Assembly (NCBI GenBank): GCA_963931925.1
Contig: OZ007573.1
Span: forward strand, 34,805,749-34,869,748
Length of the DNA stretch: 64,000 nt
Direction: 5' to 3'
From: Onchidella celtica
Taxonomy: Eukaryota; Mollusca; Gastropoda; Systellommatophora; Onchidiidae
In this document: positions 3,813 to 64,000 of the stretch, piece after piece
How positions within the stretch are numbered: the first letter of the stretch is position 1
Layout: each line of letters begins with the position of its first letter
Position numbers and translations under genes: made by a program
Notes under the pieces: generated by a model
What the model was told of the DNA's origin: nothing
The model's database searches: none
Seen by the model: only the letters and a program-made list of their open reading frames with translations

Positions 3813-5627
3813 CACTTTACAGAAAATGTCTGAACGGAAGGCTGAATCGGAAGGTAAAATGGCTAATAAGTGAGCACTTTCATGTGACAAAATCTTATCA
3901 TTAGCACCCATCGTGAGTAACACACACTGTGCCTGCATGCCTAATACTATATGTTAGATACACACAGAACGCGGAAGATTTGGGAAAGCTATCTATACCC
4001 ACAATTGCCGTCCGTTTTTGCCATGGACAGCCCATTATCTTGTTCTTGAATATTCCTCCCATGGCCCATACAGATGGACATCCCAGCCCAGTTAATCCTT
4101 GACTACTAAGCTTAATGTCGATAAAGATTGTAGTGGAGCCAATACGTCCTAATGTCAAGTAATGCCAAAGCCAGTCGGAGACTTGCCACAATGCCAGGTA
4201 AGCCTGCAGTTGGTATTTGAAAGACATTTCCAAGACGTTGAATCCTAGACGCGAGCTTGGAATTATTTCTTAGAGATAAGACAGGTTGGAAAATGAACTG
4301 AAGCTAATGGTCCATTGAATGAAGACGGTTTGACTTCAGTTTTGTGGACAATCGAGTTAAACGGACCTGGCGCATAAGCGAGACGATAAAAGTCTGTTTC
4401 AGTTATAATTATGAAATCGCGTGTCCAATCTCAATTTTCGACGATTTATTACGTGGACAAATCCATTTTAGACAAAATACAGTCTTTGATATTAGGTTTA
4501 TGTATTAACAGTTTTTTTTTTAGCCGCAAAACAAAAAAACCAAAAAAAATAGGAGAGAGAGATTCTTTCTCGTCGAATATAATCGAGAAGTGCGACCGGA
4601 ATTTTGTTCTTGAAAATGAACTTTATCACATCTGCCTATTCTGTAATGAATTGTGGCGTCACATTAACAATAATTTCTATTAGTCTTTGCATTAAACCAA
4701 GTGCCATTATTAATGTCAATTACATCTAGAATACGGTTGGGTTTGGTACAGAGAATTGGCAAGATCGGATGGTATGGATAATGATAATTCTTATGTGTAA
4801 ATATTATGGTTAGACGGTATGAATAAGAAATGACGAGACCAGTGGAGAAAATATTCACTTCAGTTCCCTGAACGCCTAGCCGGAGTGAAAAAAAGAATAT
4901 GTGAGAGAAACAGAGAATGGGAGTGAAAGAAAATCATACCTTTAAAGAGAGAATTTCACAGACATGTTTTTGTCCAAACCATGTGTCATTCCAGTAAAGA
5001 TAAATGTTACAGATGCATTGGTATTTATCAGAATTGACATGGACGAGGAATGAGGCTGAAAACACGATCATAATCTTTACTGTTGGTTTCTGTCCACGTA
5101 ATTCCCATTTTGAAATGTTTACCATAGGCACAAAAAAATTGATTAACGGGTGGTTCTCAAAGGCCTAAATTCCAGGAAATGGATTAGGTCTTAAGTGACT
5201 GAAAATGCCAAACTCCAAATGTCTAATACTGTATAAAATAAAAGCAGGGCTGTGGTGATGTACTATCTATTTTACGGTACTAAATGAGATTACAGAATTC
5301 AATCCAGCACCAGCCTGGAGCAAAGATTCAGTTGACTGATCATGTGACAACCTTTCATATCCAGGCCTGATGGACGATCCAAGGTCAGTGAGTCCAGCCA
5401 ATCAAGAATCAATCTCTTCATGACCAGCCCGCAAAACCGAACGAAAATGTTCATCGCTAATGGAAAACAGAATTATAGCACTGCTGTCTCGTTTGCCGGG
5501 AATAAAAACTATCATTTGGCTTAAAGAGACGGAACATTTTATGTGCTGGTCTAAAGCTGCGTTTTCATGACTGGCTCCGTGGAAAATAGGCATCCGTAAC
5601 CTCAAATTATCTCCCCTGATTTGCCCG
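3813..5627. other. Non-coding sequence between microsatellite and transposon
   Basis: A 110-codon open frame at 3901-4233 (minus) shows no recognisable motif or splice context and is treated as chance. No repeats with clear ends were seen. The stretch forms the left flank of the ISL2EU-type element. Confidence 0.45.
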
Positions 5628-5628
5628 A

Positions 5629-5643
5629 GCAAAAGAGGGGTTC
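5629..5643 (+). repeat. Left terminal inverted repeat of the ISL2EU-type element
   Basis: The sequence GCAAAAGAGGGGTTC is the exact reverse complement of 13025-13039. It lies 27 bp upstream of the THAP start codon, so the promoter or 5' UTR of the transposase must overlap the element end. Outside this block the two flanks show no further similarity apart from one base. Confidence 0.85.
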
Positions 5644-5869
5644 GGTAGCCATTTGTTCTGCTGGGGTAAAATGGTGAACTACTGCGTTATACCTCTCTGT
5701 CATACAGAGGGTGGATATCGCTTCCCCAAAGACGACAAAGTCAAGAAAAAATGGATTGCTTTTGTCAACAGGAAAAGAAAGGCATGGAGCTGGACCCACA
5801 GTTCTGTTTTATGTGCAAAACACTTTAGTGAAGATGACTTTGTGGATTCATCGACATCAACATGGAGAA

Positions 5870-6629
5870 GTAAGTACATGGACATGTAGATCTAGTCTAG
5901 ACTAGTCAAGTTCTAGATATCTAGATCTAGTTGCATTGCGTCTATACCATTACCAAAACAGGAAGAGTTCTGTATGGCCTGCCTATCATGTCAGTTCCCA
6001 ACCTTAAACCTATGACCCTGTCCTTTTCCCCAACCCCAAACCTAGTCATTTCTCGAGCCTAGATCTACAGATCTAGAGTCTAGATCCTATACTATCTCTT
6101 ATCCTTTTAACCTGAAAATGAAACATAAATAATTTGTATGTGTATGAATTCTATGTGGTAAGGACATTAATTTGTGTGTGTGTGTGTGTTTGACACGTGA
6201 TTTTCACTTAAGGTTAGGGTGCTGACCTTAGTCATTCGGTAGGCTGTCACTAAAAAACATTGTAATGTGTATTCAAACGACAACCAAAACATGGTTTTAG
6301 AATTTTGAAAGTAGTGAAGATTGCTCTACTGGCGATTTGCTCAGATTTACACTAGCCTGTTACTGAAAATGATTCTCAAGATTGACAGAAAAATAATTTG
6401 CTCACTCAGCTGCTAATTTGTATGCTAAATTGCTATGTTTGAGTAGGCGGAAAAGAGGAAGGGCTACATAATACATAATTGCATACAAACTAGGGATATC
6501 AAGACTTTTTTTTTTCTTTGCATAGAAGAAATCAGATCTGAACAAATATCATGTTGTGTAGTAATATTACTAAATAATGTCTTTCTAATACTACATGTAT
6601 TAAATATGAAAATACTTATACTTTCACAG
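5870..6629 (+). other. Intron of the transposase gene
   Basis: The GTAAGT donor at 5870 and TTTCACAG acceptor ending at 6629 join the THAP exon to the basic linker exon in phase 1. The interval is AT-rich, contains several short CTAGATCTAG-type palindromic strings near 5890-6090 and a (TG)n run near 6174, and has no coding signal of its own. Confidence 0.7.
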
Positions 6630-6876
6630 AAACACCGAGAAAAAACAGACTTTTAAAGAAGGGTTCTTTCCCACAAATATTTCAGCCTCATGCCCTTACT
6701 GAAGAGCCTAGGGACCACAGACGACGCCTGAGAGAGATAAGACGGGATGAGGAAGAGCAGATTGCCAAACAAGAAAGGGAAATTGAAAGACAGGAGGCAG
6801 AAAAGGTGTATCTTGAGGAAGACATTCCTGTGTCGGAGTTTGTGGAAATGTCTTATTGTAATGCTGTAATGTCTGA

Positions 6877-6913
6877 GCCTTCACCACCAGATATATCATC
6901 TGGTGGTGAAGGC
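6877..6913. repeat. Perfect 15-bp hairpin inside the transposase coding exon
   Basis: GCCTTCACCACCAGA at 6877-6891 and its exact reverse complement at 6899-6913 are separated by 7 bases. The stretch encodes part of the acidic linker (PSPPDISSGGEG). Nothing else suggests a function. Confidence 0.8.
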
Positions 6914-8149
6914 ATATGTGATACACCTACAATTTCTTTTGTTAATTCACGGGAGATCATTTCTCTTGATCTTGACGAAGGTGATAATGAGGAGGAGAAT
7001 GATGTCGATTTGACCAAAGAAAAATTTACTGTAAAGAGAGTTCCCTATGATGAAGATGATAAAGATGAAAATGAATTAAATTCAATTATTTACCAGTAGC
7101 ATTTTTTTACGCATCCTTATGTGTCGATTGATAGGATCAGATATTCACCGAAAGATTGCCTGCATTACACTGGCTTACCCAATTTTGATAGGTTCATGAC
7201 AGTTTTTCGTTCTTTAGGTCCAAATGTGAATAATATTAAGTCTATCTTTACAAAGAAAAGTATTGATTCTGTGGTTCCCCAGGCTGCTTTTCTTGTTAGG
7301 CTAGTGTATCTGAGACATCATTATTGCAATGCAGAATTATCAAACATGTTTTGTCTTTCAGAATTTACTCTGCGCAACATTTGTTACACGTGGGTTAAAT
7401 TTTGTTCCAAGCAGTGGGGAGAAATAAACACATGGGCTCACAAATACATTGTTGATCATTACTGCCCACTTGATTTCAAGATGAAATATCCTGACACAAG
7501 AGTAATAATTGATGGGACAGAAATACCAGTGCAGAGACCATCAAACCCAACTGCCCAGAGAGCAACATTTTCTACATATAAGCATAGGAATACTGTTAAA
7601 GTCTTAGTGGGTGTAACGCCAGGGGGGCAAATATCATTATGTTCAGAAGCTTATGGGGGGGGGGGGGCAGCTAGTGACAGGCAGATTGTAGAAAGATGCA
7701 GTCTATTGGACAAAGTAGAGGCAGGGGATTCCATCATGGCTGACAAGGGTTTTAATATCCAAGACATGTTTCGAACTAAAGATGTTAAGATTAACATGCC
7801 GAATTTTTTCAAAAAGAAAAACAGAATGACACCAGAAGCAGTTGCGGAAGATAGATGTATTTCAAGCAAACGCGTTCATGTTGAAAGGATAACAGGTAAT
7901 GTAAAGGTATACAAAATCCTTAAGTCATCACTAAATGCAACTGAAACAAATATTGCCACTGATATTATTTTTGTATGTTTGATGTTGACAAATTTCAGAA
8001 ACAATGTTGTTTCACAGTATGTTTAAAGATGGTGAAAGATGCCAGTTTCTCATTAAATTAACCTGATGTTATGTAGAGACATCTATATTATTATGCTTTA
8101 TTGCCATAGTAATGCAGACCTATTGGACCATGACATATTTCAAAAGATC

Positions 8150-8530
8150 AGAATCATACCGCATAACTGGTGTTACTCTTTCCATCAGATAGTCCGATCC
8201 CAAAGAAGTGGACGAAGACTGTATTTAAAAACAAACAGAGAGCGCTATAGACGATCTTTTCTGCCATCCGCAATTCGAAATAGCAGTGTTTCCTGATGTA
8301 GTATGCTGTTGTTAGTTTTTTTCCTAATGGATTGTTCTTACAGTGTGTATGTTTGTGTGTGTGTGAGCAATGTTCTTACTTGTTGGTAAGGCTGTTTAAG
8401 CAATGTGCGTGTGTGCCTTAAAGACCTGTAGGTTTTAGATATATTGTATTTGCTGTTGTGCTGTTACTGAATGCTGTGACAACAAATTTCCTGGAAACAG
8501 GATAATAAAGTCATATCTTATCTTATCTTT
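8150..8530 (+). mobile_element. LINE 3'-end fragment nested in the ISL2EU-type element
   Basis: The reading frame at about 8170-8296 ends with residues TNRERYRRSFLPSAIRNSS, resembling the very C-terminus of many LINE reverse-transcriptase proteins (R-T-N-R-Y-x-x-S-F-x-P-x-A-I-R). It is followed by a short 3' UTR with AATTTCCTGGAAACAGGATAATAAAGT and a (TATCT)n-like tail ending near 8530, which is the usual 3' end of these elements. The 5' part is missing. The insertion lies in the intergenic part between the two convergent transposon genes and does not break either gene. The left boundary is approximate and the clade is not assigned. Confidence 0.6.
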
Positions 8531-9597
8531 AGTGATTGCAAACTGAAAATAACTAATGTTTCATCTTCAGTGTCCTCTATTATTCAGAATCTTGTCAGCC
8601 AGTACTGCAGATTGTCAAACAACAATTTTGTTCTTATTTATTATTATTATGACAATGATTTATAATTACACGTACACTGTATTATATATATGGAAATACA
8701 TGTCATCCACTTTGGAAGATCACTGTTCTTTGAGATCAAAAATGGAAAAATGCATTCATGATGTGGGAGACCAAATGATTTTAAATTAATTGAACATATT
8801 TAAATATATAGAATACAAAACATAACGGCAACTTATTTTCATCATGGCCAAAAAAAAAATAAAAAATGACATGACCATCTATTTATTACAATATTACTAT
8901 AGCAGCTCTTCCATGAGAATACATAAATTTATGATAAATATACTTGGAGAGTTGTAAAAGCAAACACTTAAGAAATACCAAATCCACCTTTGTGCTTTTT
9001 AATTCAAAAAGGAGCATTAGAAAGTCTACAACAAGATATGCAGCCCTTTAAAAAATTGATACAGTAAAATTTTTAAAAAAACGATACTGAGTTATTTCTG
9101 TAATAAAAAATGATTTGTCATTGTAAGTCACAAAACGCATCTTGTGTGTTCTGTAGATTGAGAGATCTCTCAGGAGAGAGAAAAAAACTTTCTTGAGCTT
9201 GGTGCACAAAAAAGTAATACATGTACTGTTGTTTCATTTTTACTCATTATCTCACATAAATTTCTGGGCACATTTCTGCCTTAGATAGACTGAAAGATTG
9301 TAAAATTTGTATAGTTATTATGTCCATATGAAATTATAATAAATGTATTACTGTCAAACAAAACGCGTGCACTGAAATAAATTTCATTTTACTGTATTAA
9401 ATGCTAATTCTGTTTTTCAAATACCACCATGGCATGACTTTCAATTTTTATCATTTACAGTATGTTGTGTTACTTGTTACAGTTTACAGTAAAGTTTATC
9501 AGAAATGTTTAATAAAACAGTACAGAATCACTGCAATTTTTAAACTTCTGCAAAGCAAACATCATAATTTTCATGTGAAAGAAAATTTAGATTACTT
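8531..9597. other. AT-rich intergenic centre of the ISL2EU-type element
   Basis: No ORF with recognisable content is present. The sequence is very AT-rich and separates the 3' ends of the two convergent genes. It presumably contains 3' UTR and polyadenylation sequence for both, but no clear pair of signals can be fixed. Confidence 0.5.
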
Positions 9598-12306
9598 CTA
9601 ACAGTCTTTGTATAAAAATTTATCCAAGAGGGAAGTTTTGAAGTAGTCATTGAAGAAGGATACCAATTCATCCAACATTTTCTTTATAAATTCATCATTT
9701 CTTTTCACTTCAATGACTTTAAAGTCATTCAAGGTGTAAATGACAAAATAACATTTATTTGCTTCACAGCATGCCATCTGTCCTTGAATCTGGAAAAAAT
9801 GATTATGATTAGAACATAATTCCAGACCCTGTTCCGTCTGTTTCAGATAGGGCACTGTCTCAGCACAAATACTCCTATCCCTACTTGCATAGGGACACTT
9901 AACCTCTACAACGCTTATATGGTCACTATCAATTATTAAACCATCTGGTGATGCACCGATGAATGGAAAAACTTTGTGCACTTGTAGACCTGACTTTTCA
10001 ACCGTGCATCTGGTCAGTTCGTATTTCTTCCCATGTGCTATTGCAGGCAGATGACTCAAGTCCAGAGGATTCAGAAGTCCCTGTGAAATCTGTCAAAATG
10101 AAAACAAAAATGCATAAACTCATTAGCAGACTTCTGTGTTACCAAGCCAATTGTGTGAATTGAATGGTTCGAACAGTTGAAGCCTCTATTTCAGATAGAT
10201 TATCTACAAAAGATCAGAGGACATGAGCCCCAGGAAAAAAAAACAACAACATATATAATCGTTTGCATCCTAACTGGTGTTGGTTGTTTGGGTGCTAAAA
10301 GTAAAAGAAATTTAAAGATGAAGCCTTCCATTTATTTTACTGTAAGTGCACAGAGACATTCCATTGCAGTTACAGGCATTATTAAATCCAACTGCTGCAA
10401 AAACAATAAAAATGCAGTCATTAGAATAGTAAAAAAAAAAAAAACCTGCATGTATTATTGTTAGTCGAGTTAGTGTTATATTGCCAAAAGCGCTGTGAAC
10501 ATGAAGCTTATTATATAGTACTGAATTATACTCCCAAAATCTCCAAATAAAAAAGACAATAATTTAACATGTCAATGTCAGCTATCAGTTATTTTTAAAA
10601 GACTGACACAGTTATTTATAGAGGCCTATTAATACTAAATATTGGAAACCTTACCTATTTTTTTTCCTACGAACTGGCAGCAAGATGGATTAGATCTCAT
10701 AAATTTGGATAACATAATTTTATAAAGTTTTCATTGAGGTGGTAATTTAACAACAGTCTGTTGCACAAAAATAAACTGCAGTTCATTAATAATAAGCCTA
10801 CCTTGTTCTTGTCTCTGGCCTTGCAGATCTGTCCAAACTGTGATGCAGTTAGCCTTATCCTCCTTTCTGCAAGCCATTTTGATGAGCCTGCCTGGTGCAG
10901 AGTCGCCATATTTAATGTCTGTGTGGAAAATAAAATTACTGAACAATAAATATTTATATCATCAACTGCTTACCATTACCATCAATTTATGATCAAGTTC
11001 TGAATACATAGGTCTGATCTAATCACATTATTTTCAGTAGAAATCATATGAAACACTGGCTTTTCATCAAAACCATGCATATAATTACCTTGTGAACAGT
11101 GATTATTTTTTAATTAATCTTAATCTGTCAAATGCCTAATAATATTAATAGAAAATTCTGATACTACATTTAGTCCATTTTCACAAATTATATCTGACGG
11201 GGGAAATCCGGAGTTACAGAAGGAGATAATTCAACTGCCCAGCAATAATGTTTAGCAAAACTGAACAGTGAACTTCAAGGCTCAGCACTTACCTTGCGTT
11301 GGGATTCACTCATGGTTATGAGTCCCAGCTGCCTCAGAAAGTGTTCTTCTATGCCAAGAGCTGAATACGTGTGATCCATGGCCACTGCTCTGGTGTTGGC
11401 AGGAGCATACAATTGAAAAATTGGCATGCTGCTGGCACTTTTGTCAGCCATGACGACATTTCTGAAGTGTGAAGCATACGATGTGACGTTCTGACATTCT
11501 TGTGGCCTTGGATCATCGATATGCATTTTCACCCTAACGTCGAGACTTTTTGCTTTTATTGGTGAACCCGTGTGTGGCTTGGGTTGATGAAACGTTTGTA
11601 GCCTCTGTGTACATGTCTCATACGTAATGATCGGTAACTTGTTGTGATGGTCAACCAGGCCAAGGAGGACCATAACAACATGCTTGCATGCAGCATTTGG
11701 TCCCATGCCAATGGTGCACTCGCACTGGCACTGTTCTATGGTTCCTACTTTTCCCAGTAAAATAAATATCAACAAAGTATCTCACTTTCACTTTCTTGCT
11801 GGCTCTCACTTGTGCATAAATGTATGTGAAGGGGGGCAGCAGTTCTGATGAACGTAAAAATAAAATATGTCTCTCCTCATACAGCTCCCGACCACTTTGT
11901 TTTACTGTTAAATGCATGGCTGACAGGTATGCCTTCACTGATTCTGCAGTAACAGGAGGCAGAATGACATCAGTGTGAATATCTTTGTATGAACTTCTGC
12001 TTGGGACAGCCATAACATAGTCCACTTTTTGGTCACTGCTTTTCCCTATATGACATGTGTCAAAGAACTCCAGCCCGAAAATAAATCAGGAAATGCTTAA
12101 CTTTTTTTTTTTAGTTTAATGTCAAGTGGATAGATGTGAGATAAAACAGTTCAACATGGTGTTCACTTCAAGAGTAATATTTTTAACAGGTCTAATCAAT
12201 ATATATGTCTTGTTACACTGTCTACTAGATATGCATTTTCTGACACTCAGACTAGAAAACTACAATATCTTCGATAAAATTTAAGTACCTTTATAATTAT
12301 TAACAC

Positions 12307-12525
12307 GGAAGGACTTCCGAATGCGTTCCAAAGCCCGAGTGAAAATAATACATAGTTATAAGTTACCCCGGCGGCTTTCCCTGATATGTACATCTGACTA
12401 CTGCACAGACGAACATCGGCCTACGGCCTCGATGTACAAACTGACTAGACCCTCACGTCGTTACATATCAATCTGACAATGCCTACGCACTTGTCGAGCT
12501 ATGGAATGCATTCGGAAGTCCTCCC
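12307..12525. mobile_element. 219-bp MITE with 8-bp target duplication, nested in an intron
   Basis: The ends are inverted repeats of about 22 bp (AGGACTTCCGAATGC at the left, GCATTCGGAAGTCCT at the right, with one mismatch further in). The direct repeat ATTAACAC flanks it exactly at 12299-12306 and 12526-12533. An 8-bp duplication is typical of hAT or P superfamily elements; the ends do not show the canonical hAT CAGGG start, so the superfamily stays open. The element has no coding capacity. It sits between exons 1 and 2 of the SAP-SWIM-YqaJ gene and therefore inserted after the host transposon. Confidence 0.88.
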
Positions 12526-12878
12526 ATTAACACAGAGGTCTTTTTCTAAATTTATGACTCATTGAATTCATTCACCATTGAATCTCATGCAGCTAGAACT
12601 AGACTAGATTCTAGTCTACCATTATATTCATGATAACTGCGGGAAGTTAATAATAATTAGACCTAGATATATATAAAATCTATATATATATGTGATTTTA
12701 ATCGTAAACTGTAAACAAAAACTACTATTACTAGATCTAGAGTCTAGATCTATCTATGTAGATGTAGGTCATGATGCTACTACTGGCGACTGCTAGCTAG
12801 ATGTATCTATAGCGGCATATTGCAAAATATGCCCGATTCATTATAGATTCGTTAGTTTAAAATATTAAAGTTACTTAC

Positions 12879-12982
12879 CTCGATACCAATTCTGCCTTTT
12901 TCCCACTTATTTTGATGCATCTTTGCCTGCATTCTTTTTTTAGCTGGGTGAGCGTCTTAGAACCGTAGTCGGACATAGCCAT
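12879..12982 (-). CDS. SAP-domain first exon of the YqaJ-type gene
   Basis: Reading leftwards from the ATG at 12980-12982 the exon gives MAMSDYGSKTL followed by TQLKKECRQRCIKISGKK and AELVSR, then AG|GTAAGT. The L-x-x-L-K-x-x-C ... S-G-K-K-x-E-L-V-x-R pattern is that of a SAP DNA-binding motif (two short helices). The exon is 104 nt long and ends in phase 2. It begins about 43 bp inside the right terminal repeat, which supports it as the 5' end of the gene. It is too short to stand out as an ORF. Confidence 0.75.
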
Positions 12983-13024
12983 TTTCAACGAAATCTATCA
13001 ACCGGGAGCGAAGTCTACAACACG

Positions 13025-13039
13025 GAACCCCTCTTTTGC
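13025..13039 (-). repeat. Right terminal inverted repeat of the ISL2EU-type element
   Basis: GAACCCCTCTTTTGC is the exact reverse complement of 5629-5643. It lies about 43 bp upstream of the SAP-exon start codon on the minus strand, mirroring the left end. Confidence 0.85.
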
Positions 13040-13040
13040 T

Positions 13041-15781
13041 ACAAACACCGATATTATATTAGTACGACGCACTGACGGTAACGAACGCCTATTGTGTTCG
13101 GTGAAGGCCGCGAATGTCATCCTTCACCGCAACGCAGTCGCAATCTTTACGATTTCCTGCAAATTTTTTCGCATTTTATTTTTTGCTTGTTCATCAAGTT
13201 CAAAGACCGAAATTGAGCTAAACATTATTTCTAATACAGCTACAGCACATTACAGTGTTCCCCCTGCTTGACAATACATTTAGACTCGCCGAACATGTGC
13301 ACTAGAGTGAAAGTGCTGTCTTGGGTGGGGTAAATGCAGACTCTACAAAGGAACTATCGAGGTCAGTGGTAAATCTCCATTTTAAAAAATCATCCTTATT
13401 TTTTCAATTGGTGTAATTCAAATTTGATAAAAATGTCATTTGCACGACTCAAATAATATGAAGAGTTGAGTATTTACATTTTCAGGACTATACATATGCC
13501 TTCCTATGCCAGATTAATAAAGATCAGTGAACAACTTTGAAAGCTTCAAATTAAAGTTAAACTCACACTTATTCCAGGAAAATTTTGATATATAGTTTGA
13601 GTTCAGCCTTGCCTTTGTAGAAATAGAAAGATATAATGTGTGTGAATGAGACGGAGATGAACGCAATGCTTTTAAGCATGTTCTGTGAGTGTACCTAACT
13701 ACTGTATGGCATTAGTAACATCTTTAAAAGGGAATGACTGCTGTGTGTGTAAAGTGTAAGTTTATGTACAAGTTTGTTTTGTAAAGCACGTAGGGCCCAC
13801 GGAGTAGGGAGTTGGCGCTATATAAATAATAAAATATGTATTTTTATTAATTCATGAACGCAATTTTTTGTGCAATTTTTCTTGTTTTTTTGCATGCAAT
13901 TTTTGCCATTCAGAATACAATTTTTGTATTTTCAAAATGCAATTTTCCGCGGGGTCAGTCGTGTGTACGGAAACGGCAAAAAGGGAACGTCCAAAACCCA
14001 CCAAGTAGTGGTAAAGAAAGAATGTCTTCATTCATGTGTACGGAAAACGCCGTTGCCCTACACATAGAACACTCTTTTTTTTTTTTTTTTACTATCAGAT
14101 GGATTTTTGACGTTTCAGTTGTCGTTGCTGTACACATGAAAACGCAGCTTTAGAGAATGACATGAACTCTCTATGACAATATGGTCCTATATTAACTGAT
14201 ATATTAATATAAAGGATTTTGCGTACCGGTAAAATTTGCGGCAGTGAGTGCAGAGTTTGTTTGATGAGTACTAAACACAACTTGCTTGAAAACGTGTGGT
14301 GTGCCAAAACGATGTTTCAAATAAATTGAAGGAGATTTGATATAATTATTTTAGGAGCTGAAGACGTGGGTCGAGCGGTTTAACGACATCTTGCAAAGCT
14401 TGAAGGTGTCATAAACCACACAAAGAGGTTTCTATTCAAAAGAAAAAGTCCGGCTTTAAGATAGAAAACGGGGGAGGGGTGGGGGAGTAGGTCACTGCTC
14501 ATTTACTTTCACACTACGTTTTTGTTTGCATTGACTTTTAAATGAATGTGTATTATGTAACATACTTTACATTCAATATTATTTTGTTTGACACATCTTT
14601 CCATTGTGGCTTTATTGTGCCGCCCCCCCCCCCCCACACACACACCACAAACTTTTCTAGCCCCACCCACCAACAATTTATTCAAGTCCGATTCCACAAA
14701 TTTGACACCGCTGAAGACACACAATCCCAGGTCCATGAAATTGAGGGCTGGAAATAGAGTTGAACGCCAATGAAAACTACAAGTTGCGCAAAACCTGGGA
14801 CAAGCAAAATGCACTCGATTTCGTAGATCATTCACAATACACAATAATTGCATTATCATTCACAATACACAGTATGCATTTTTTTTTTCATGCCCAAGGT
14901 AATACCCCCACCACCTCCCCCCCCCCCCCCCCAACCTCCCACACCGATCGGGCCTTTTTTTTTTAATCAGGGGAGATACTCTCCTGCCCTTTAGGATCAC
15001 GGGTATATATATGTTATATAAGCCAAGTCTGCAATGCAGATGTTATGAAATCAATACTGACTTCAAGAGAACAGTCAGATTTCATTCCCCAGATAACCCG
15101 GACGTTTTCCCTATAAAAAGCAGTTGACATACAACGCATGAACATAATATGTTTATTTATGATAGATACCGATCAAGTAAATGTGATCCCCCATTCGTAC
15201 AAATAGGCATATTTCACAGGGACTTTGAAGTATTCTTACCTTTCTCATGTTGAACAGCAGTCGGTGGCATTCCTAAAGATTAATCAAAAAACTCTTCATC
15301 TCTTTGAATTGAGAGAGACAGAGAGAGAGAGAGATAGACAGACAGACAGACAGACAGAGAGAGAGAGAGCGGCTGGATCCCGATGAGACTTGGAACTGCA
15401 AAGCCGAAAGATAGCAAAGAAAAATAAACGTGGTTTTTACCAACTTACAAAAATGTTACAAGCATGTAAATATTCCTGTTTAACTTAAATTTTGATATAT
15501 ATGAGACATAGAAAGTGAACATAGTGTCTTTTATGAGTATTGGTAACTGTTTAATTCAATGCCGTATAACAAATACCACTGTGATGGCGTGTGGTCTTAA
15601 AAAAAAAAAAAAGACTCTTTGAGCCTCGTCTCCAAATTAATCACAATGGAAAGGTTTTGTGATCCAACTGTGAACAACTCTCCAAAATATCTATGCAGCC
15701 ATTTCGTCAAGAAAAAAGTTATTGTGGCCGGGAAATGAAGCAGAAACTTAACTTTTTTGCCCTTTCACTTTACTTTTCGTA
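13041..15781. other. Non-coding flank with a LINE tail relic and simple repeats
   Basis: At 13773-13838 the string TAAAGCACGTAGGGCCC followed by GGCGCTATATAAATAAT resembles the L2/CR1-like 3' tail also seen near 31.75 and 33.3 kb. C-rich homopolymer/(CA)n runs lie at about 14622-14645 and 14907-14945. A (GA)n/(GACA)n array lies at 15308-15370. ORFs over 90 codons at 13854-14153 and 14509-14859 cover low-complexity sequence and have no motif. Confidence 0.5.
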
Positions 15782-22224: not shown

Positions 22225-22340
22225 AGTGTTTCTCAAGGTGGGGTGCACGCCCCCGGGGTGGCAATATTTTTTGGGGTCTTTGAACTTGATGAACAAGCAA
22301 ATAATAAATTTTTTGGGGGGCGTGGGACTTCAGAATTCGG
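22225..22340 (+). mobile_element. hAT-like terminus, fragment
   Basis: AGTGTTTCTCAAGGTGGGG at 22225-22243 resembles the CAGTGTTTCTCAA termini of Charlie-type hAT elements, followed by a G/C-rich subterminal region. No partner inverted end was found in the next 500 bp, so this is at best a fragment. Confidence 0.3.
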
Positions 22341-22880: not shown

Positions 22881-23365
22881 GTTCTCTAATTTGTTCATTG
22901 CCTTTTTTCTTTCATTTCTAGACTATACAACGAACAAATACGTAATCGGTCTGGTATAGCACAACGCAAAAAGGTATTCGATCTCACCATCCCAACAGGT
23001 GTCAATATTTCCCATGCTGAACTTAACCTTACTTGTAAGAAAAAGGACTTTTATTATTATATAATTGTATGGGGAACAAAAGATCGATATGACGAAGCCC
23101 AGAAATATGTGCTCGCCTGACCTGGTGTAACCTATTCATCACTGACGGTATGCTTAATCTGTCCAAGGTGAAGTGAATCTACTGCCGCAAGACAATAGCA
23201 ATTAAGGAGAAAAAAAACGAATGTCGAAACAGAGGAGTCTCCCAGGTATACCAGAGGCAAAGGCGACCAGGGGCGTAGGCGAGGTTCACAGTGTTCGGGG
23301 ATTATGTACGTCTGAGTGTCACGCAGCGAGGATTTTAAGTTGATTGGTACAAACTTTGAGCAGAA

Positions 23366-25915
23366 GGAGAAAAAGAAGGAGATGATGAAGGAAAAAAAGA
23401 AAATGATGAAGAAAAAGAAGATGATGATGAAGAAAAAGAAGATGATGAAGGAAAAGAAGAAAATGATGAAGAAAAAGAAGAAAATGATGAAGAAAAAGAA
23501 GAAAATGATGAAGAAAAAGAAGAAAATGATGAAGAAAAAGAAGAAAATGATGAAGCAAAAGAAGAAAATGATGAAGGAAAACAAGAAGAAAATGATGAAG
23601 GAAAACAAGAAGATGATGATGAAGGAAAACAAGAAGATGATGAAGGAAAACAAGAAGATGATGATGAAGGAAAACAAGAAGATGATGATGAAGGAAAACA
23701 AGAAGATGATGAAGGAAAAGAAGAAAATGATGAAGGAAAACAAGAAGATGATGAAGGAAAAGAAGAAAATGATGAAGGAAAACAAGAAGATGATGAATGA
23801 AAACAAGAAGATGATGAAGGAAAACAAGAAGAAGATGAAGGAAAACAAGAAGAAGATGAAGGAAAACAAGAAGATGATGAAGGAAAACAAGAAGAAGATG
23901 AAGGAAAACAAGAAGAAGATGAAGGAAAACAAGAAGATGATGAAGGAAAAGAAGAAAATGATGAAGGAAAACAAGAAGAAAATGATGAAGGAAAACAAGA
24001 AGATGATGAAGGAAAACAAGAAGATGATGAAGGAAAACAAGAAGATGATGATGAAGGAAAACAAGAAGATGATGAAGGAAAACAAGAAGATGATGATGAA
24101 GGAAAACAAGAAGATGATGATGAAGGAAAACAAGAAGATGATGAAGGAAAAGAAGAAAATGATGAAGGAAAAGAAGAAAATGATGAAGGAAAACAAGAAA
24201 ATGATGAAGAAAAAGAAGAAAATGATGAAGGAAAACAAGAAGATGATGAAGAAAAAGAAGAAAATGATGAAGAAAAACAAGAAGAAAATGATGAAGGAAA
24301 AGAAGAAAATGATGAAGGAAAACAAGAAGATGATGAAGGAAAACAAGAAGAAAATGATGAAGGAAAAGAAGAAAATGATGAAGGAAAACAAGAAGAAGAT
24401 GATGAAGGAAAAGAAGAAAATGATGAAGAAAAACAAGAAGAAGATGATGAAGGAAAAGAAGAAAATGATGAAGAAAAACAAGAAGAAGATGATGAAGGAA
24501 AAGAAGAAAATGATGAAGAAAAACAAGAAGAAAATGATGAAGGAAAAGAAGAAAATGATGAAGAAAAACAAGAAGATGATGAAGGAAAACAAGAAGAAAA
24601 TGATGAAGGAAAAGAAGAAAATGATGAAGGAAAACAAGAAGAAGATGATGAAGGAAAACAAGAAGAAAATGATGAAGGAAAACAAGAAGAAAATGATGAA
24701 GGAAAAGAAGAAAATGATGAAGGAAAACAAGAAGAAAATGATGAAGGAAAAGAAGAAAATGATGAAGGAAAACAAGAAGAAAATGATGAAGGAAAACAAG
24801 AAGAAGATGATGAAGGAAAACAAGAAGAAGATGATGAAGGAAAACAAGAAGATGATGAAGGAAAACAAGAAGAAAATGATGAAGGAAAAGAAGAAAATGA
24901 TGAAGGAAAACAAGAAGAAAATGATGAAGGAAAAGAAGAAAATGATGAAGGAAAACAAGAAGAAAATGATGAAGGAAAACAAGAAGAAAATGATGAAGGA
25001 AAACAAGAAGAAGATGATGAAGGAAAAGAAGAAGAAAATGATGAAGGAAAACAAGAAGAAGATGATGAAGGAAAAGAAGAAGAAAATGATGAAGGAAAAC
25101 AAGAAGAAGATGATGAAGGAAAACAAGAAGAAAATGATGAAGGAAAAGAAGAAGATGATGAAGGAAAACAAGAAGAAGATGATGAAGGAAAACAAGAAGA
25201 TGATGAAGGAAAAGAAGAAAATGATGAAGGAAAACAAGAAGAAAATGATGAAGGAAAAGAAGAAGAAAATGATGAAGGAAAACAAGAAGAAGATGATGAA
25301 GGAAAAGAAGAAGAAAATGATGAAGGAAAACAAGAAGAAGATGATGAAGGAAAAGAAGAAGAAAATGATGAAGGAAAACAAGAAGAAAATGATGAAGGAA
25401 AAGAAGAAGAAAATGATGAAGGAAAACAAGAAGAAGATGATGAAGGAAAAGAAGAAGAAAATGATGAAGGAAAACAAGAAGAAGATGATGAAGGAAAAGA
25501 AGAAGAAAATGATGAAGGAAAACAAGAAGAAGATGATGAAGGAAAACAAGAAGAAAATGATGAAGGAAAAGAAGAAGATGATGAAGGAAAACAAGAAGAA
25601 GATGATGAAGGAAAACAAGAAGATGATGAAGGAAAAGAAGAAAATGATGAAGGAAAACAAGAAGAAAATGATGAAGGAAAAGAAGAAAATGATGAAGGAA
25701 AAGAAGAAAATGATGAAGGAAAACAAGAAGATGATGAAGGAAAAGAAGAAAATGATGAAGGAAAAGAAGATGATGAAGGAAAAGAAGAAAATGATGAAGG
25801 AAAAGAAGAAAATGATGAAGGAAAAGAAGAAAATGATGAAGGAAAACAAGAAGATGATGAAGGAAAAGAAGAAAATGATGAAGGAAAAGAAGATGATGAT
25901 GAAGGAAAAGAATTA
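23366..25915 (+). repeat. 2.5-kb minisatellite of 21- and 24-bp units (GATGAAGGAAAACAAGAA family)
   Basis: Units such as GATGAAGGAAAAGAAGAAAAT (one base over 20 if written fully; split as GATGAAGGAAAA + GAAGAAAAT) and GATGAAGGAAAA + CAAGAAGAAAAT repeat more than 100 times. Differences between units are nearly always whole triplets (15, 18, 21 or 24 bp), so several reading frames stay open for over 850 codons on both strands. The frame that would read as a plausible acidic protein (DEGKQEENDEGKEEN) has no ATG and is closed by TGA near 23798, while the open ATG frame reads only Met, Lys, Glu and Asn. I therefore treat it as a non-coding purine-strand satellite, not a gene. Confidence 0.85.
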
Positions 25916-38767: not shown

Positions 38768-39062
38768 GGGGACACGTTGGTCTACAGGCAAACTGCTCGC
38801 CTCTCATGCCGAAGGTACCGGGTTCGATTCCCGGTAGATGCAGGCATGTTGGAATTTGGGGATTTTTCTCATATTTTCCTGTCCCCGATCCTATGGTAGG
38901 TTGGATCGAGCACCTAATCTTCTCGGATAAGGAGGAAAAACTCGGAGGGCCCTTGTGTACGTTTGCACACATTAAAGATACCTTGGCCGTTGAAAGTCTA
39001 GAACAGATGGCCGAACAAGGGCGCTGCCCGGGCAAAATTCTAAAAAAATTTATTCCTACCAC
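38768..39062 (+). mobile_element. tRNA-derived SINE
   Basis: The head contains an A-box-like TGGTCTACAGGC and a B box GGTTCGATTCC 40 bp later, the spacing of a tRNA-type pol III promoter, and ends in CCGGTAGATGCAGG. The body contains GCACCTAATCTTCTCGG, GGGCCCTTGTG, ACATTAAAGATACCTTGG and a GGGCAAAATT end, shared with the copy at 60.06-60.53 kb. This copy ends in an A-rich stretch and lacks the CGCCGACCGGCG/(ATACAA)n tail segment of the other copies, so it is either 3'-truncated or a shorter subfamily. Confidence 0.85.
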
Positions 39063-49930: not shown

Positions 49931-50020
49931 ATGTGTGTGTGAGAATGTGTGTATATATATCCGTGTATGCGTGTGCGTTGTGTGTCCCTGTGCATATATG
50001 TGTGTTTGTGTGTGTTACTC
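49890..50020 (+). repeat. (GT)n microsatellite
   Basis: GT, GCGC and TATA runs; its right part lies inside the 107-bp duplicated block. Confidence 0.8.
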
Positions 50021-50072
50021 ATTCAAAGTTTACATACTTTGATGGCTACTTTTAAATTTGAATGTGAACTTG
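49966..50072 (+). repeat. 107-bp direct repeat, left copy (target-site duplication of the LINE)
   Basis: It is identical base for base to 51106-51212 at a fixed offset of 1140. It starts TATGCGTGTGCGTTG and ends GAATGTGAACTTG. Confidence 0.85.
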
Positions 50073-50969
50073 CAAAACTGTGTTGATAAGTTCTCTAGTG
50101 CCTGTGACAACTTTGGCCTCACAATAAGCACAAAGAAGACGGAAGTGCTCCATCAGCCTACTCCAGACGACAAGTATCCTGTGACCCCAAATATCAAAGT
50201 CCATGACAGTCTTCTGAAGGTGTCGGAGAACTTCACCTATCTTGGCAGTACACTGTCTTCCGCGGCTCGTGTTGATACTGAAATTCTCTCAAGAATCAGC
50301 AAAGCCAGCTCTGCATTTGGCAGGCTTCGAAAGAGAGTATGGGATGTCGCCGGCATTCGCACAGACACTAAGCTGAAAGTGTACAATGCTGTGGTCCTTC
50401 CCACCCTACTCTATGGGGCTGAAACCTGGACAGTGTACCAATCGCATGCCAGAAAGCTAAATCACTTTCATCTGGCCTGCCTTAGAAAGATCCTAAGGAT
50501 CAAATGGCAGGATAAAATTCCAGACACTGGGGTCCTCAATCGTGCCAAGGAATTGAGCATCTTCTGCCACCTGAAAAAAATTCAGCTACGTTGGGCAGGA
50601 CGTGTCAGAATGCCCGACTCCAGACTCCCTAAGCAAATCTTCTTCTCTGAGCTCTCCAATGGAACGAGGAATGTTGGGGCCCCAAAGAGACGTTACAAAG
50701 ACACTCTCAAGCAATCACTGAAGGCCTTTGCCATTGATGTGAGTGAGTGGGAAAAGCTCTCGCTTGATCGTGCAAATTGGAGGGCGGCCCTTACCAGAGG
50801 CAGCAAAGCATGGGAAGCTGACAGAGTCCAGCAGGCTATCAAAAAAAGAGAACGGCGCAAGAAAAGGCCCAGTGGTACTGAACCAACGGAGCACTCTTGT
50901 CATTTATGCGGAAGGGTCTGCAGGGCAAAAATAGGACTTATCAGTCACATGAGAAGCCATAAGTCATGA
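50073..50969 (+). pseudogene. LINE ORF C-terminal fragment (RT thumb region plus C2H2 finger)
   Basis: About 298 residues are open. The first residues FSSACDNFGLTISTKKTEVL are the block that normally follows the YADD catalytic box, so truncation fell just after it. Next come YLGSTLSSAARVDTEILSRI, the LLYGAETWTVY block, LRKILRIKWQDKIPD and LSIFCHLKKIQLRWAGRVRM, all standard in endonuclease-reverse transcriptase LINE proteins. The C-terminus is a C2H2 finger, CHLCGRVCRAKIGLISHMRSH in outline (C-x2-C-x12-H-x3-H), a likely nucleic-acid-binding part. The frame begins inside the element without its own start codon, so it is not a working gene. Clade not assigned. Confidence 0.85.
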
Positions 50970-51105: not shown

Positions 51106-51212
51106 TATGCGTGTGCGTTGTGTGTCCCTGTGCATATATGTGTGTTTGTGTGTGTTACTCATTCAAAGTTTACATACTTTGATGGCTACTTTTAAATTTG
51201 AATGTGAACTTG
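51106..51212 (+). repeat. 107-bp direct repeat, right copy
   Basis: Identical to 49966-50072; it directly follows the LINE 3' end. Confidence 0.85.
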
Positions 51213-60055: not shown

Positions 60056-60528
60056 ACTTGTATTTGTATTTGTATTTGTATAACTCTTTAATCCCATTTG
60101 GGAAATTTTGCCTTTGTGCCATTGCAGCCCAGTTATAACTGGAGCAGGCACGTCGTCGCCACAGTGCAGCGCCGGTCGGCGTGTTTTTTTTGTTTTTTTT
60201 TGGGGGGGGGGAGATGAGGGGGGAGGGGGAGGGATTGGTAGAGATGAATTTAATTTAATTTTGCCCGGGCAGCGGCCTGTTCGGCCTGCTCTTTACGATT
60301 TCCAACTGCCAAGGTATCTTTAACGTGCGCAACGTGCACACGGGCCCTCCGAATTTTTTCGTCCTTATCCGAGAAGACTAGGTACTCGATCCTACCCCTC
60401 AATAGAATCAGGGACACGAAAATATGAGAAAAATCCCAAACTTCCAACATGCCTGCACGGCCCGGGTTTCGAACCCGGGACCCTTGGCACGAGAGGCGAG
60501 CACCTTGCCTCTAGACCACCTTGTCGTT
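60056..60528 (-). mobile_element. Full-length tRNA-derived SINE, about 470 bp
   Basis: On the minus strand the tRNA head carries a B box GGGTTCGAAACCC-like string (60459-60477 region) and an A-box-like TGGTCTAGAGGC, followed by the same body as the SINE at 38.8 kb (CATTAAAGATACC-type block here as ACGTTAAAGATACCTTGG), a C-rich segment, the CGCCGACCGGCG module, GGCACAAAGGCAAAATTT and a (ATACAA)n tail at 60056-60078. The head, body and tail are all present, so this is the reference copy for the family in the window. Confidence 0.85.
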
Positions 60529-61215
60529 TCGAATAACAAGATTATAATAATTCGCGTTTTTTTTTGGTGTTTTTTTTTTTACATGCAAGAAATGAAGCAA
60601 CCATTCATTAGCTTGATTATCTTAATTAACCAAAATTGCTGTTTGCCAAAAAAGGCAATAAATAAACATAATGCCTGGGAACAGCGACAGCACAAGAGAT
60701 TTTCAGAGGATAAGAACTCTGTCAACCTAATGTTTTGGTTCTTGAATTCCTTACACACACTGGGGTGCGGACCATAATTTATGTCCAGGTCGTCAGTCTG
60801 AGTATTTTCCTGTTGTTCCCCTGGGTGGGTGGTTGCAGTTAAACCTCTGTATTAAAATCTTGCTCATCCACATGTCACACTGCTAGATTTTTTGCCGAAT
60901 TTCAGGTACAAAACTGATGAGTTTGTCCGAAGAGTTAATTGACCTAATGACAAAGCATTGATCATTATGCAGTCATGGCGTGTATTGTAAAATACGGCTG
61001 CGAAGCTAATATGAGTGCATGTAAATCAGCCGGAACTCTTGAACTCTTAAACAGAAGACGAAAACAACCTACTAGTTATACTACATTTTTTTTCACCCCA
61101 CGGCCATCTCGCAACTAGTCTGACTACAACCTATCAAAGTCCCTTTTTCACTTCTTGCGAGTAGAATGTATTTTTAACAAACAAAAAAAAAGCGCTCTTC
61201 CCCTGTGCGTTCTGA
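60529..61215. other. Non-coding sequence
   Basis: Nothing recognised; a 117-codon frame at 60424-60777 runs through the SINE head and is chance. Confidence 0.4.
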
Positions 61216-61848
61216 TGAAACAAATTGTTTTAATGAGAAAGAAAAAGTAATGTCCTCCTCAAAATAATTAAAAAAATTTTCTATCTCATACATTCTATGT
61301 GTTTTATACTTTGCATATTAAAATCAAACGTTAAAATGTAAAGATTAAATGTTAAAATGCTACATCAAATGTAGATGTAAAAAAGCAAAGGCTCAACCAG
61401 CACTTCTTTAAACTGTGCACATCTATTCTGTTTTTAATTTACACATAGAATTTACACAGAGATGGTGTGTTGATTCAATATTCTCCTGAAAAAAAAAAAA
61501 AATGTGTAAGATTTTGTGTCACATTTTTATCAAGGTGTCCCATTTAAGTGTGCCCTGTAATGGCCAAATAATGTTGGTCGATCATATTTCATAGCGATCC
61601 GCTTCTAATAAGCAGGTAAAAAAAATTGTATATTATACACAATATCTACTTTAAAGTTAAATTTCGATCTTTGAAATAAAAAACAAACCAATTTTTATTT
61701 AAGAACTCGCATTTTTCCTACTTTTTTTCGAGAAATTGTGAGATTATTTAGGGTGGATCTGGCTCAAAATCTGTACATAGTTTTCTGGGTTTCATTGGCG
61801 GACCTACATTTTTGGGACCATGAAGCTTGAACTGTTATGGGGCCCTTC
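61216..61848 (+). repeat. Diverged direct repeat, copy A
   Basis: It matches 62928-63555 in the same orientation through shared strings such as AAAAAGTAATGTCCTCCT, ATCAAACGTTAAAATGTA, CTCAACCAGCACTTCTTT, GGTGTGTTGATTCAATATTC and TTATTTAGGGTGGATCT, with many substitutions and small indels. Edges are approximate. No coding content. Confidence 0.8.
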
Positions 61849-62927
61849 ACAACCAGCAACAATAGTGCATTAAAAAAAAAATCTTCACGACCCCTCCGGG
61901 ATTAAGAGCGCTGAAGCTCAAGTTTCATTAGTTCCAGGGTAGATCCGCTACTGTTCGGTTTCCTAACTATTTCACAGGATTGACGATCCCACATTCAATG
62001 GCGGGGTAAATGGAACGATCCTGGTTATTTCTTTTGGAATTTAATTACGAAATTATTAGACTATTTAGGTGGGTGAGCTAAAAAATGTGTGAGTGGATCT
62101 GATGAAATCTCGCTTAGGGTAAAAGACCAAATTCCTGAGAAAACCCCTCCAAAGGAGAAAATATTCTGTAGATATTGAAACATGTAAGATTAGCCATTTT
62201 CTGCATTCAGTTGAAATATTTTGCTCCCAATCGTCTTAGAAATACGCTTATTTTGACTTCTTAAAGAGGTATAAAAATTTCAAATTTAGCGAAGTTTTGT
62301 CAGATTCATCAACATATTCATTTAGTTTGCTTGGTCTCTTGAAAATGAAGTACTGACTTTTAGTTACGGAGCATTCCATGTTTACTGACCTGAAAAACTG
62401 ATGGAATTTTTGCACTATTTTGAAGTTTCACCCGCATTCATTACTGATGCTATGATAACTATCCCAGCCAGTATCCCAATGTTATTGCATAGCAGATTTG
62501 TATAGGATTTCTGTAAGGTTGATAGGATTACAGTAGGGGCGGGTTCCCTACATCAAACCGACATTGGTATGATGCCATAACCAGTGGATCTCCGTAGGAA
62601 ATAATGCCAGTCCTATGTCTGAACTTAACATCAGATCCGCGTGTCGGATTTCCGTCTGGTCGCTGTCTGGACTTTGTTTAATGTTTAAAAACTAACTATT
62701 CCACTACACAGCTCGTATAGAAGATACAAAAGTTCATAAACCATCAAAGTAGTGGAGTATCATTTGTAAAGAGAAAAACTCAATTTCCCTTGTCTTTGTA
62801 ATTTTTTTTTTTTTTTACTGCGTTTGAACTAAACATTACGTTGATATCTCGGACTAGGGGAAGTCAAATCTCTTTCTCATACTGTTTGTGAAGGCATTTA
62901 CACGTCGGCGACGGCATGAAAGATCTG
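61849..62927. other. Single-copy spacer between the direct repeats
   Basis: Non-coding AT-rich sequence, not duplicated within the window; only short similarity (ATTATTAGACTATTTAGGTGGG at about 62048) to the repeat ends. Confidence 0.4.
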
Positions 62928-63555
62928 TGAAACAGCTTCATTTTACCGAAAACAAAAAGTAATGTCCTCCTTAAAATAAACAACAAAAAAAACATTTCTA
63001 TCTCACACATAATATATGTTTATACGTTGAATGTTGCAATCAAACGTTAAAATGTACAGATTTAAATGTTAAAATGCTACATCAAATGTTAAATATGTAG
63101 ATGTAGAAAAGCAAAGACTCAACCAGCACTTCTTTGAACTATGCGCCTCCATTCTGTTTTTAAGTTACACATAGAATTTACACAGAGGTGGTGTGTTGAT
63201 TCAATATTCTCTTGAAAAAAAACAACAACCCACAAATGTGTAAGATTAGTCTAATTTAAGTGTGCTCTGTTATGGCCGAATAATGTCGGTGGATTACAAT
63301 GATCCCTTTCTAATAAGTGGGTAAAAATGCATATTATACACATATCTACTTTAAAGTTAAATTTCATTTTTTTCTTTAAAATAAAAAAAAAAACACTTTG
63401 TATCTAAGAACTTGCATTTTTCCTACCTATTTTCTTAATTTGGAAATTATTTGATTATTTAGGGTGGATCTCGCTCCAAATCTCTATGTAGTCTTCTCGG
63501 TTTCATTGGCCAATCTGCATTTTGGGGACCCTAAAGTTGGAATCGTCATGGAGTC
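62928..63555 (+). repeat. Diverged direct repeat, copy B
   Basis: See copy A at 61216-61848; offset about 1.7 kb. Confidence 0.8.
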
Positions 63556-64000
63556 ACTTCGCAACTAACAACTTATCAGTTGTTTGAAAATTGAACTGAA
63601 TTAATAAATAACTTGAATGGAATATGTGGCCAGCAAATGAATTTACATTCTTACCAGCAGTTCCATTAGTTCGGCAAACACTTTGTGCAAGTTAAAATTG
63701 AATGGAAAACAAATGGATGGGTTCGTGATCTGAACTCAGCAGTTATTAATGCAGGCCAACAATAACCGATTATCAGTTTTGCATCCTGGGATTTGGCTGT
63801 TCCTGCAGTTTTTTTCATTTCATTTACAAAGAGATCCAAGTTGATATGTTTGACAGGCAATCTTATTAATCTAAGATGGCAACTGCAAAACAAACATGTT
63901 CAGCAAGATCAGCTGACGTGAGCAATAAATCAAGAAATCTTTTCTTAATGCTTTGGGAAGAAAGTTTTTTTTTTTTGGTAACAAAATGGGAGCTTCCCTG
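63556..64000. other. Non-coding sequence to the window end
   Basis: A 75-codon minus frame at 63666-63893 has no recognisable motif. Nothing else seen. Confidence 0.4.

Follow-up and report, generated by a model that had tools for sequence, protein, structure and literature searches.

The 64,000-nucleotide stretch of the Onchidella celtica genome analyzed here (contig OZ007573.1, hereafter the window) carries a degenerate DNA transposon of the ISL2EU group in the PHIS superfamily, a new family within an established type, and we put the probability of this reading at about 0.85. The element spans positions 5588-13090 (7503 bp, AGGC...GCCT), and similarity between copies ends at these two positions. 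An earlier note made from the letters of the window had already named ISL2EU, and the name is sustained by an AT duplication in an AATT target, a gene joining a THAP finger to a DDE transposase, and a second gene joining a SAP motif to a YqaJ nuclease domain.

The boundaries were drawn from the other copies in the genome. The window's own assembly (1.14 Gb) was searched with a 15-mer of the inverted repeat that the earlier note had taken as the perfect 15-bp ends of an element at 5628-13040. Exact matches occurred at 39 places, namely 21 left ends (the window's included), 17 right ends and one place (L069) with other flanks and no match to the element, while the reversed 15-mer, used as a control, had 0 exact places in the same genome. 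The repeat itself is indeed perfect, at 16 bp and not 15 (AGCAAAAGAGGGGTTC at 5628-5643 on the forward strand, and its match at 13025-13040 on the reverse strand), and shuffling the letters of the two start-codon regions 5000 times never gave an inverted repeat of that length, the longest being 12. It is nevertheless subterminal, because the 21 left and 17 right ends share sequence for a further 40 bp (left) and 50 bp (right) outside it; the other copies thus terminate elsewhere than at 5628 and 13040, an outcome that the earlier note had itself named as refuting its reading. All 21 left ends retrieved with the outer 24 bp contain the exact 15-mer, and a genome-wide search with this 24-bp left end, allowing up to two mismatches, returned the same 21 and none extra. 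The terminal inverted repeats are 14 bp long and match at 11 of 14 positions, with AGGCATCCGTAACC at 5588-5601 (forward strand) and, by sequence comparison with that end, AGGCGTTCGTTACC read inward at 13077-13090 (reverse strand).

The termini of the family read A-AT-AGGC...GCCT-AT-T, so that 2 bp (AT) of an AATT target are duplicated. In the window the duplicated AT lies at 5586-5587 and 13091-13092, with A at 5585 just before and T at 13093 just after. Of the 21 left ends, 20 have AT and 19 have AAT, and all 17 right ends have ATT; the left-end exceptions are L052, which reads CAT, and L060, which reads ATT. In 15 of the 16 copies with both ends read, all but L060, both flanks are AT. Two of these 16 were paired by position, their ends coming from separate stretches with 17 and 22 kb between them. 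The constant 2-bp duplication expected by the earlier note is therefore present at 5588/13090, whereas 5628/13040 has no AT duplication, and the GC duplication seemingly present there was rejected as an artefact of the wrongly placed end. A filled and an empty version of one site show the same duplication: a copy on C11 (L065) holds a nested relative, and its site reads GCGTT-AT-[AGGCC...GGCCT]-ATACC where the window copy has the empty GCGTTATACC. The nested insert contains a DDE frame and, on the opposite strand, a YqaJ frame (1.1e-16).

It could still be argued that 5628-13040 are the true ends and that the shared flanks belong to a host repeat hit by every copy, since the 16-bp repeat is perfect whereas the outer terminal repeat is not. 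We regard this as next to impossible: the flanks outside 5588 and 13090 vary from copy to copy and begin with AT, the intervening stretch is common to the copies on both sides, and none of the copies seen at the 21 left ends and 17 right ends begins at 5628 in a different flanking sequence. A related family in the same genome, F5, is built alike: its 14-bp subterminal repeat lies 81 and 71 bp inside the ends. Ends should be called with caution from one copy, in which even a perfect inverted repeat can prove to be subterminal.

The two genes are convergent and spliced, as had been described, with borders predicted by splice signals and frames. The transposase gene, on the forward strand, has exon 1 at 5671-5869, encoding most of the THAP zinc finger, and exon 2 at 6630-8026. 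Pfam detects THAP on the spliced piece (2e-12) and DDE_Tnp_4 (2e-40) at 7508-7993, where the catalytic D, D and E are all present with spacings of 76 and 46 (D-76-D-46-E), in agreement with the earlier description. HTH_Tnp_4 stays below the Pfam cut-off in the window (0.014) and reaches 6.4e-11 in a related family. Among viral and prokaryote contigs, short exact peptide patterns found nothing closely related to the DDE domain, and a structure of this domain predicted without relatives was unusable, with a predicted local distance difference test (pLDDT) score of 38.

The nuclease gene lies on the reverse strand, with exon 1 at 12879-12982 (SAP motif, 4.2e-9 in Pfam), exon 2 at 11293-12074, a predicted exon 3 at 10802-10918, where the YqaJ domain starts, and exon 4 at 9598-10089, which holds the YqaJ core. 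On the joined exons 3 and 4, YqaJ (PF09588) scores 1.3e-10, above the Pfam cut-off; the NCBIfam lambda-exonuclease family gives 1.5e-10, yet below the family cut-off, and a PHROG RecE-like match reaches 3e-18. Of the SAP-SWIM-YqaJ protein proposed earlier, the first and last parts are thus upheld by profiles, whereas the SWIM finger appears as a CxCx9CxH pattern at 11680-11724 (reverse strand), below the Pfam cut-off of 19.6 bits both in the window (E 0.68, 10 bits) and in another copy (E 0.032, 14.2 bits). No close relatives of the SWIM region were found in viral contigs with short exact peptide patterns. A TGA in frame where exon 2 begins was considered as a lesion and rejected: 16 other joined copies also stop there, and the true acceptor lies after the TGA.

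A structure model of exon 4, built on 17 sequences (pLDDT 77.7), has its best PDB matches in LHK-Exo (E 1.9e-6) and lambda exonuclease (E 2.2e-5), the entries for the two enzymes being 3slp and 3sz4, with a weaker fold match to the Cas4-like R354 of a mimivirus defence locus. A 17-row alignment joins the window to 16 of 31 viral YqaJ loci, 15 having been omitted for identical or overlapping proteins or doubtful starts. Eight residues are invariant in its 17 rows (G, E, D, E, K, C, P, Q). By eye, the nested relative and an unbroken copy from the window family retain all eight, and the family at 34% identity keeps all except P. We take these residues to be the active site of a lambda-exonuclease-type enzyme, and the nuclease is predicted from the model to have the lambda-type exonuclease fold together with its active-site residues. 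The first Glu and the Asp are 25 residues apart in the window and 31-37 in all 16 viral-contig proteins, a hint that the window copy has lost part of exon 4.

Comparison with the other copies adds to the damage in the window copy, which is larger than the few lesions first suggested: a stop in the transposase, a lost acceptor, a 4-bp insertion and a 27-bp deletion. The TAG at 7097-7099 (forward strand) is in none of 19 other copies, which read CAG (17) or CGG (2). The nuclease intron-1 acceptor at 12075-12076 is GG in the window against AG in all 18 other copies. Exon 2 measures 803 bp, with a net 4-bp insertion near 11750, whereas of 17 other copies that have it complete, 10 measure 799 bp and the remainder 793-804 bp; the nuclease frame closes within this exon, frameshifted near the SWIM motif. 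Exon 4 is 494 bp long against 521-530 bp in all 17 other copies that have it; the missing 27 bp or more, at about 10018-10021, are kept elsewhere and correspond to nine residues beside the first catalytic Glu of YqaJ.

The expectation that intact relatives exist elsewhere in the genome holds for the nuclease gene; for the full transposase gene it is not borne out by the copies read. With the acceptor corrected, 8 of 17 copies have a nuclease frame that stays open throughout and 7 (the window included) a closed one; for the other two, L064 and L072, the start was missed and the frame was left unjudged. The full transposase frame, cut at the window's exon borders by simple exon cutting that may misplace some starts, is open in none of 18 copies. 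The catalytic domain contains a run of G (7655-7667, forward strand) that is 13 long in the window and 7 to 18 long among the 18 copies measured, and the frame depends on its length, so slippage in this run can be one route by which the transposase dies. Pairwise identity among 16 copies compared is 95.5-99.9%, gaps counted (95.5-96.3% for the window against the others). Six of them (L054-L058 and L063) are 98.8-99.9% identical at six different sites, and have in common a 7-bp insertion ahead of the DDE domain and a 45-bp deletion across the transposase exon-2 acceptor; in one (L056) a DDE-only frame of 317 residues is still open. These six youngest copies probably moved in trans or by means of a THAP-less product, and alternative splicing may also account for their mobility.

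Two further sequences lie within the element. Nuclease intron 1 contains a 219-bp inverted-repeat element (12307-12525, within the stretch 12299-12533) with an 8-bp duplication, ATTAACAC. It is found in 20 of 24 stretches, counting the window, and is an old, established part of the family, since only stretches that also lack nuclease exon 2 (the other four) miss it. Between the two genes, 8100-8535 looks like the tail of a 5'-truncated retrotransposon with (ATCTT)n, although this is a guess; it is matched fully or partly in 21 of 24 stretches, and its open frame has no Pfam match.

Across the genome the two genes occur together far more often than chance would place them. The linkage search scored 128 of 391 candidates, as well as 150 of 1393 DDE_Tnp_4 candidates; same-strand rows within 3 kb were merged and rows already counted were left out. 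The 129 rows of the transposase search form 118 loci, of which at least 99 have a convergent YqaJ no more than 10 kb away, whereas random placement gave a mean of 0.11 convergent pairs and at most 2 in 1000 runs. With Pfam DDE_Tnp_4 matches added, 28 of 78 leftover YqaJ loci gained a partner (16 convergent, 12 divergent, 0 on the same strand). In all, at least 127 of 177 YqaJ loci have a DDE_Tnp_4 match no more than 10 kb away, in convergent layout at 115 and divergent at 12; the divergent pairs are L065 364-5699, which sits inside a copy of the window family, and 11 further loci. Several ISL2EU-like families stand side by side in this genome, the best-scoring groups outside the window family having about 70, 57, 53, 34 and 32-33% identity to the window DDE domain. 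The YqaJ domains that adjoin a transposase in other families are only 26-53% identical to the window's.

This arrangement bears on whether the locus is a fragment of an endogenous virus. YqaJ expansions in a clam genome have been described as endogenous viral elements (PMC7826175). YqaJ is named a viral recombinase domain, and two related families also match Viral_alk_exo. A viral origin of the locus is nonetheless highly improbable, given constant ends, an AT duplication and a DDE transposase within one unit, although no search was aimed at viral structural genes. Expansions of the clam type may conversely include ISL2EU genes.

The family F5 (34% transposase identity to the window, 6.31 kb) extends the picture, with DDE_Tnp_4 at 4.3e-39 and YqaJ at 5.6e-17, THAP (0.00015) and SAP (0.0035) both falling under the cut-off. 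Two of its copies are 99.87% identical across 6323 bp. It also forms head-to-tail arrays: three units on C16 (G000:C16:42122406-42141316), with a period of 6302 bp and identical over the 3599 bp compared, and two units 6316 bp apart on C1 (G000:C1:24406471-24419105, in part L076). Three places matched a search for junctions, two on C16, both GCCT-AAT-AGAACAC, and one on C1, GCCT-AATAT-AGAACAC; the C16 pair, being alike, may reflect a single event. The normal F5 left end is AGGAGAACAC, and at all three internal junctions it is short of 3 nt. A search for the left end gave 40 places, which are the three junctions and 37 full-length ends, one of them with T in place of G. Both arrays have their outer left end among the 37 and read GCCT-AT at their outer right end. 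The junction and left-end patterns demanded A or T at the flank and are no measure of AT frequency.

Because each of the three junctions joins a complete right end, an A/T-only spacer (AAT or AATAT) and a left end short of 3 nt, ISL2EU elements might have a second route of multiplication, in which the exonuclease would process excised ends, circles would form and head-to-tail concatemers would follow, as in phages. We consider this quite unlikely, and the arrays may be an assembly error. No report of head-to-tail ISL2EU arrays was found in the literature covered, subscription papers and Repbase Reports lying outside that coverage. With near-identical copies, open frames and arrays, F5 makes the role of the exonuclease open to experiment.

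For the nuclease we tentatively favor, at well short of even odds, an end-processing exonuclease that would steer repair after excision towards recombination; the reasons are its fold, its linkage to the transposase, the parallel of KolobokE and the head-to-tail arrays. By position, and by analogy with the P element, the THAP finger would grip the subterminal 16-bp repeats, that at 5628-5643 being a possible THAP binding site. The DDE domain, judging from the duplication, would cut at AGGC/GCCT and paste into AATT with a 2-bp stagger. A 5'-3' exonuclease of the lambda type could then act on the broken ends left by excision, and by directing repair to recombination with a sister copy or an element circle it might allow the element to regain or gain copies.

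Several observations weigh against this account. The role of the nuclease rests on fold and analogy. No annealing gene of the RecT/Red-beta type was recognized in the pieces of the element searched with domain profiles; by contrast, viral contig L002 (917-2795) has its YqaJ gene right after a RecT-like gene. This is one of two viral contigs examined, the YqaJ gene of the other (L001, 4852-6397) following a gene of a family without known function. The arrays occur in the relative F5 and not in the window family. The lesions of the six youngest copies part THAP from DDE, yet these copies stand at six different sites; therefore an intact full transposase in cis was not needed. Within the family, singleton against shared changes gave no significant signal of selection (Fisher p 0.22 for the nuclease, 0.10 and 1.0 for parts of the transposase); the ratios of nonsynonymous to synonymous polymorphism (nuclease 0.45; a part of the transposase 0.60, with a reference copy that has a frame problem) were not used as evidence. 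Finally, among the candidates scored, 19 of 118 transposase loci have no convergent YqaJ match within 10 kb and 50 of 177 YqaJ loci no nearby transposase, although partners may have been missed. The second outcome that the earlier note had named as refuting, the two genes lying apart, thus turned out in favor of the note at most loci and not at all of them. These 50 (for example G000:C3:19589924, C11:24987904 and C14:5975165) perhaps belong to another transposase (KolobokE-like?) or have unscored partners. The unpaired YqaJ loci include a group with frames of 266/272 residues.

There are other possible explanations for the presence of the nuclease. It could serve outside transposition, in defence or counter-defence, for instance by degrading host silencing intermediates or the DNA of rival elements. 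The resemblance to R354 and the coexistence of several ISL2EU-like families in one genome fit such a role, which we hold to be rather unlikely: the nuclease adjoins the transposase at most loci found, and KolobokE, another transposon lineage, encodes a nuclease of the lambda-exonuclease kind too (PMC9587614), which points to a function in DNA movement. The nuclease might instead be a virus-derived passenger, open merely because the copies are young. The lack of a significant selection signal within the window family and the damaged nuclease of the window copy speak for this, whereas YqaJ stands beside the transposase in families where it is as divergent as given above, and the active-site residues are retained in the three families compared. 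Because YqaJ stays with the transposase over such divergence, a passenger would hardly have remained open, and we judge this explanation improbable. End-processing after excision remains the role that we prefer.

Outside the element, the window holds a number of repeats. The right flank at 13175-13208 has a 34-bp inverted match (97%) at about 22275-22308. A 2.5-kb purine-rich tandem array at 23362-25912 has long open frames in several frames. Further repeats are 61211-61860 with 62924-63572 (77%), 38771-39061 with 60236-60525 (inverted, 82%) and 49966-50072 with 51106-51212 (100% identical). An open frame at 50043-50969 has two weak matches, RVT_1 (0.0059) and a C2H2 finger (0.0089), both below cut-off.

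Among known systems, ISL2EU is the closest. In Han et al. 2015 (PMC4482050), ISL2EU of the PHIS superfamily has one open reading frame with THAP, HTH and DDE and another with YqaJ, the role of this second gene being stated as unknown; it duplicates AT in A|AT|T, has terminal repeats of 6-259 bp usually starting with GG, and averages about 4.8 kb. A teleost paper gives the same gene pair (PMC9179366), and THAP, YqaJ and HTH_Tnp_4 are among the gene families contracted in one species in a scallop paper (PMC10225492). The window element shares the A|AT|T duplication, THAP and DDE in one gene, YqaJ in the second and a short terminal repeat. This repeat is 14 bp long and matches at 11 of 14 positions. 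The element differs in starting with AGG (AGGC) and not the usual GG, in its length of 7.5 kb and in its several introns, and one related group in the genome has a divergent gene pair. According to PMC12730594, Spy is classed as ISL2EU in Repbase, and Harbinger relatives have 0-, 2- and 3-bp duplications. Spy has no duplication, an AAATTT target and a transposase gene only, compared with the AT duplication and two genes here.

KolobokE likewise encodes a lambda-exonuclease-like nuclease (Kojima and Bao 2022, PMC9587614), and in this it is alike, whereas it has a TTAA duplication and a different transposase. The same paper describes KolobokP as forming multimers, with a nuclease proposed for recombination-based copy gain; it differs in its long direct repeats and His-Me nuclease (PMC9587614). 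PIF/Harbinger elements have a TWA duplication and a Myb/SANT gene in place of AT and SAP-YqaJ. Lambda exonuclease and LHK-Exo are the best structural matches of the YqaJ core and have the same active-site residues, as we take them to be. Phage exonucleases usually act with an annealing protein, whereas none was recognized in the pieces of the element searched. The Drosophila P element belongs to another transposase superfamily, makes an 8-bp duplication and has no YqaJ gene; its THAP binding sites, however, lie inside the element and not at its tip, as those of the window element may do.

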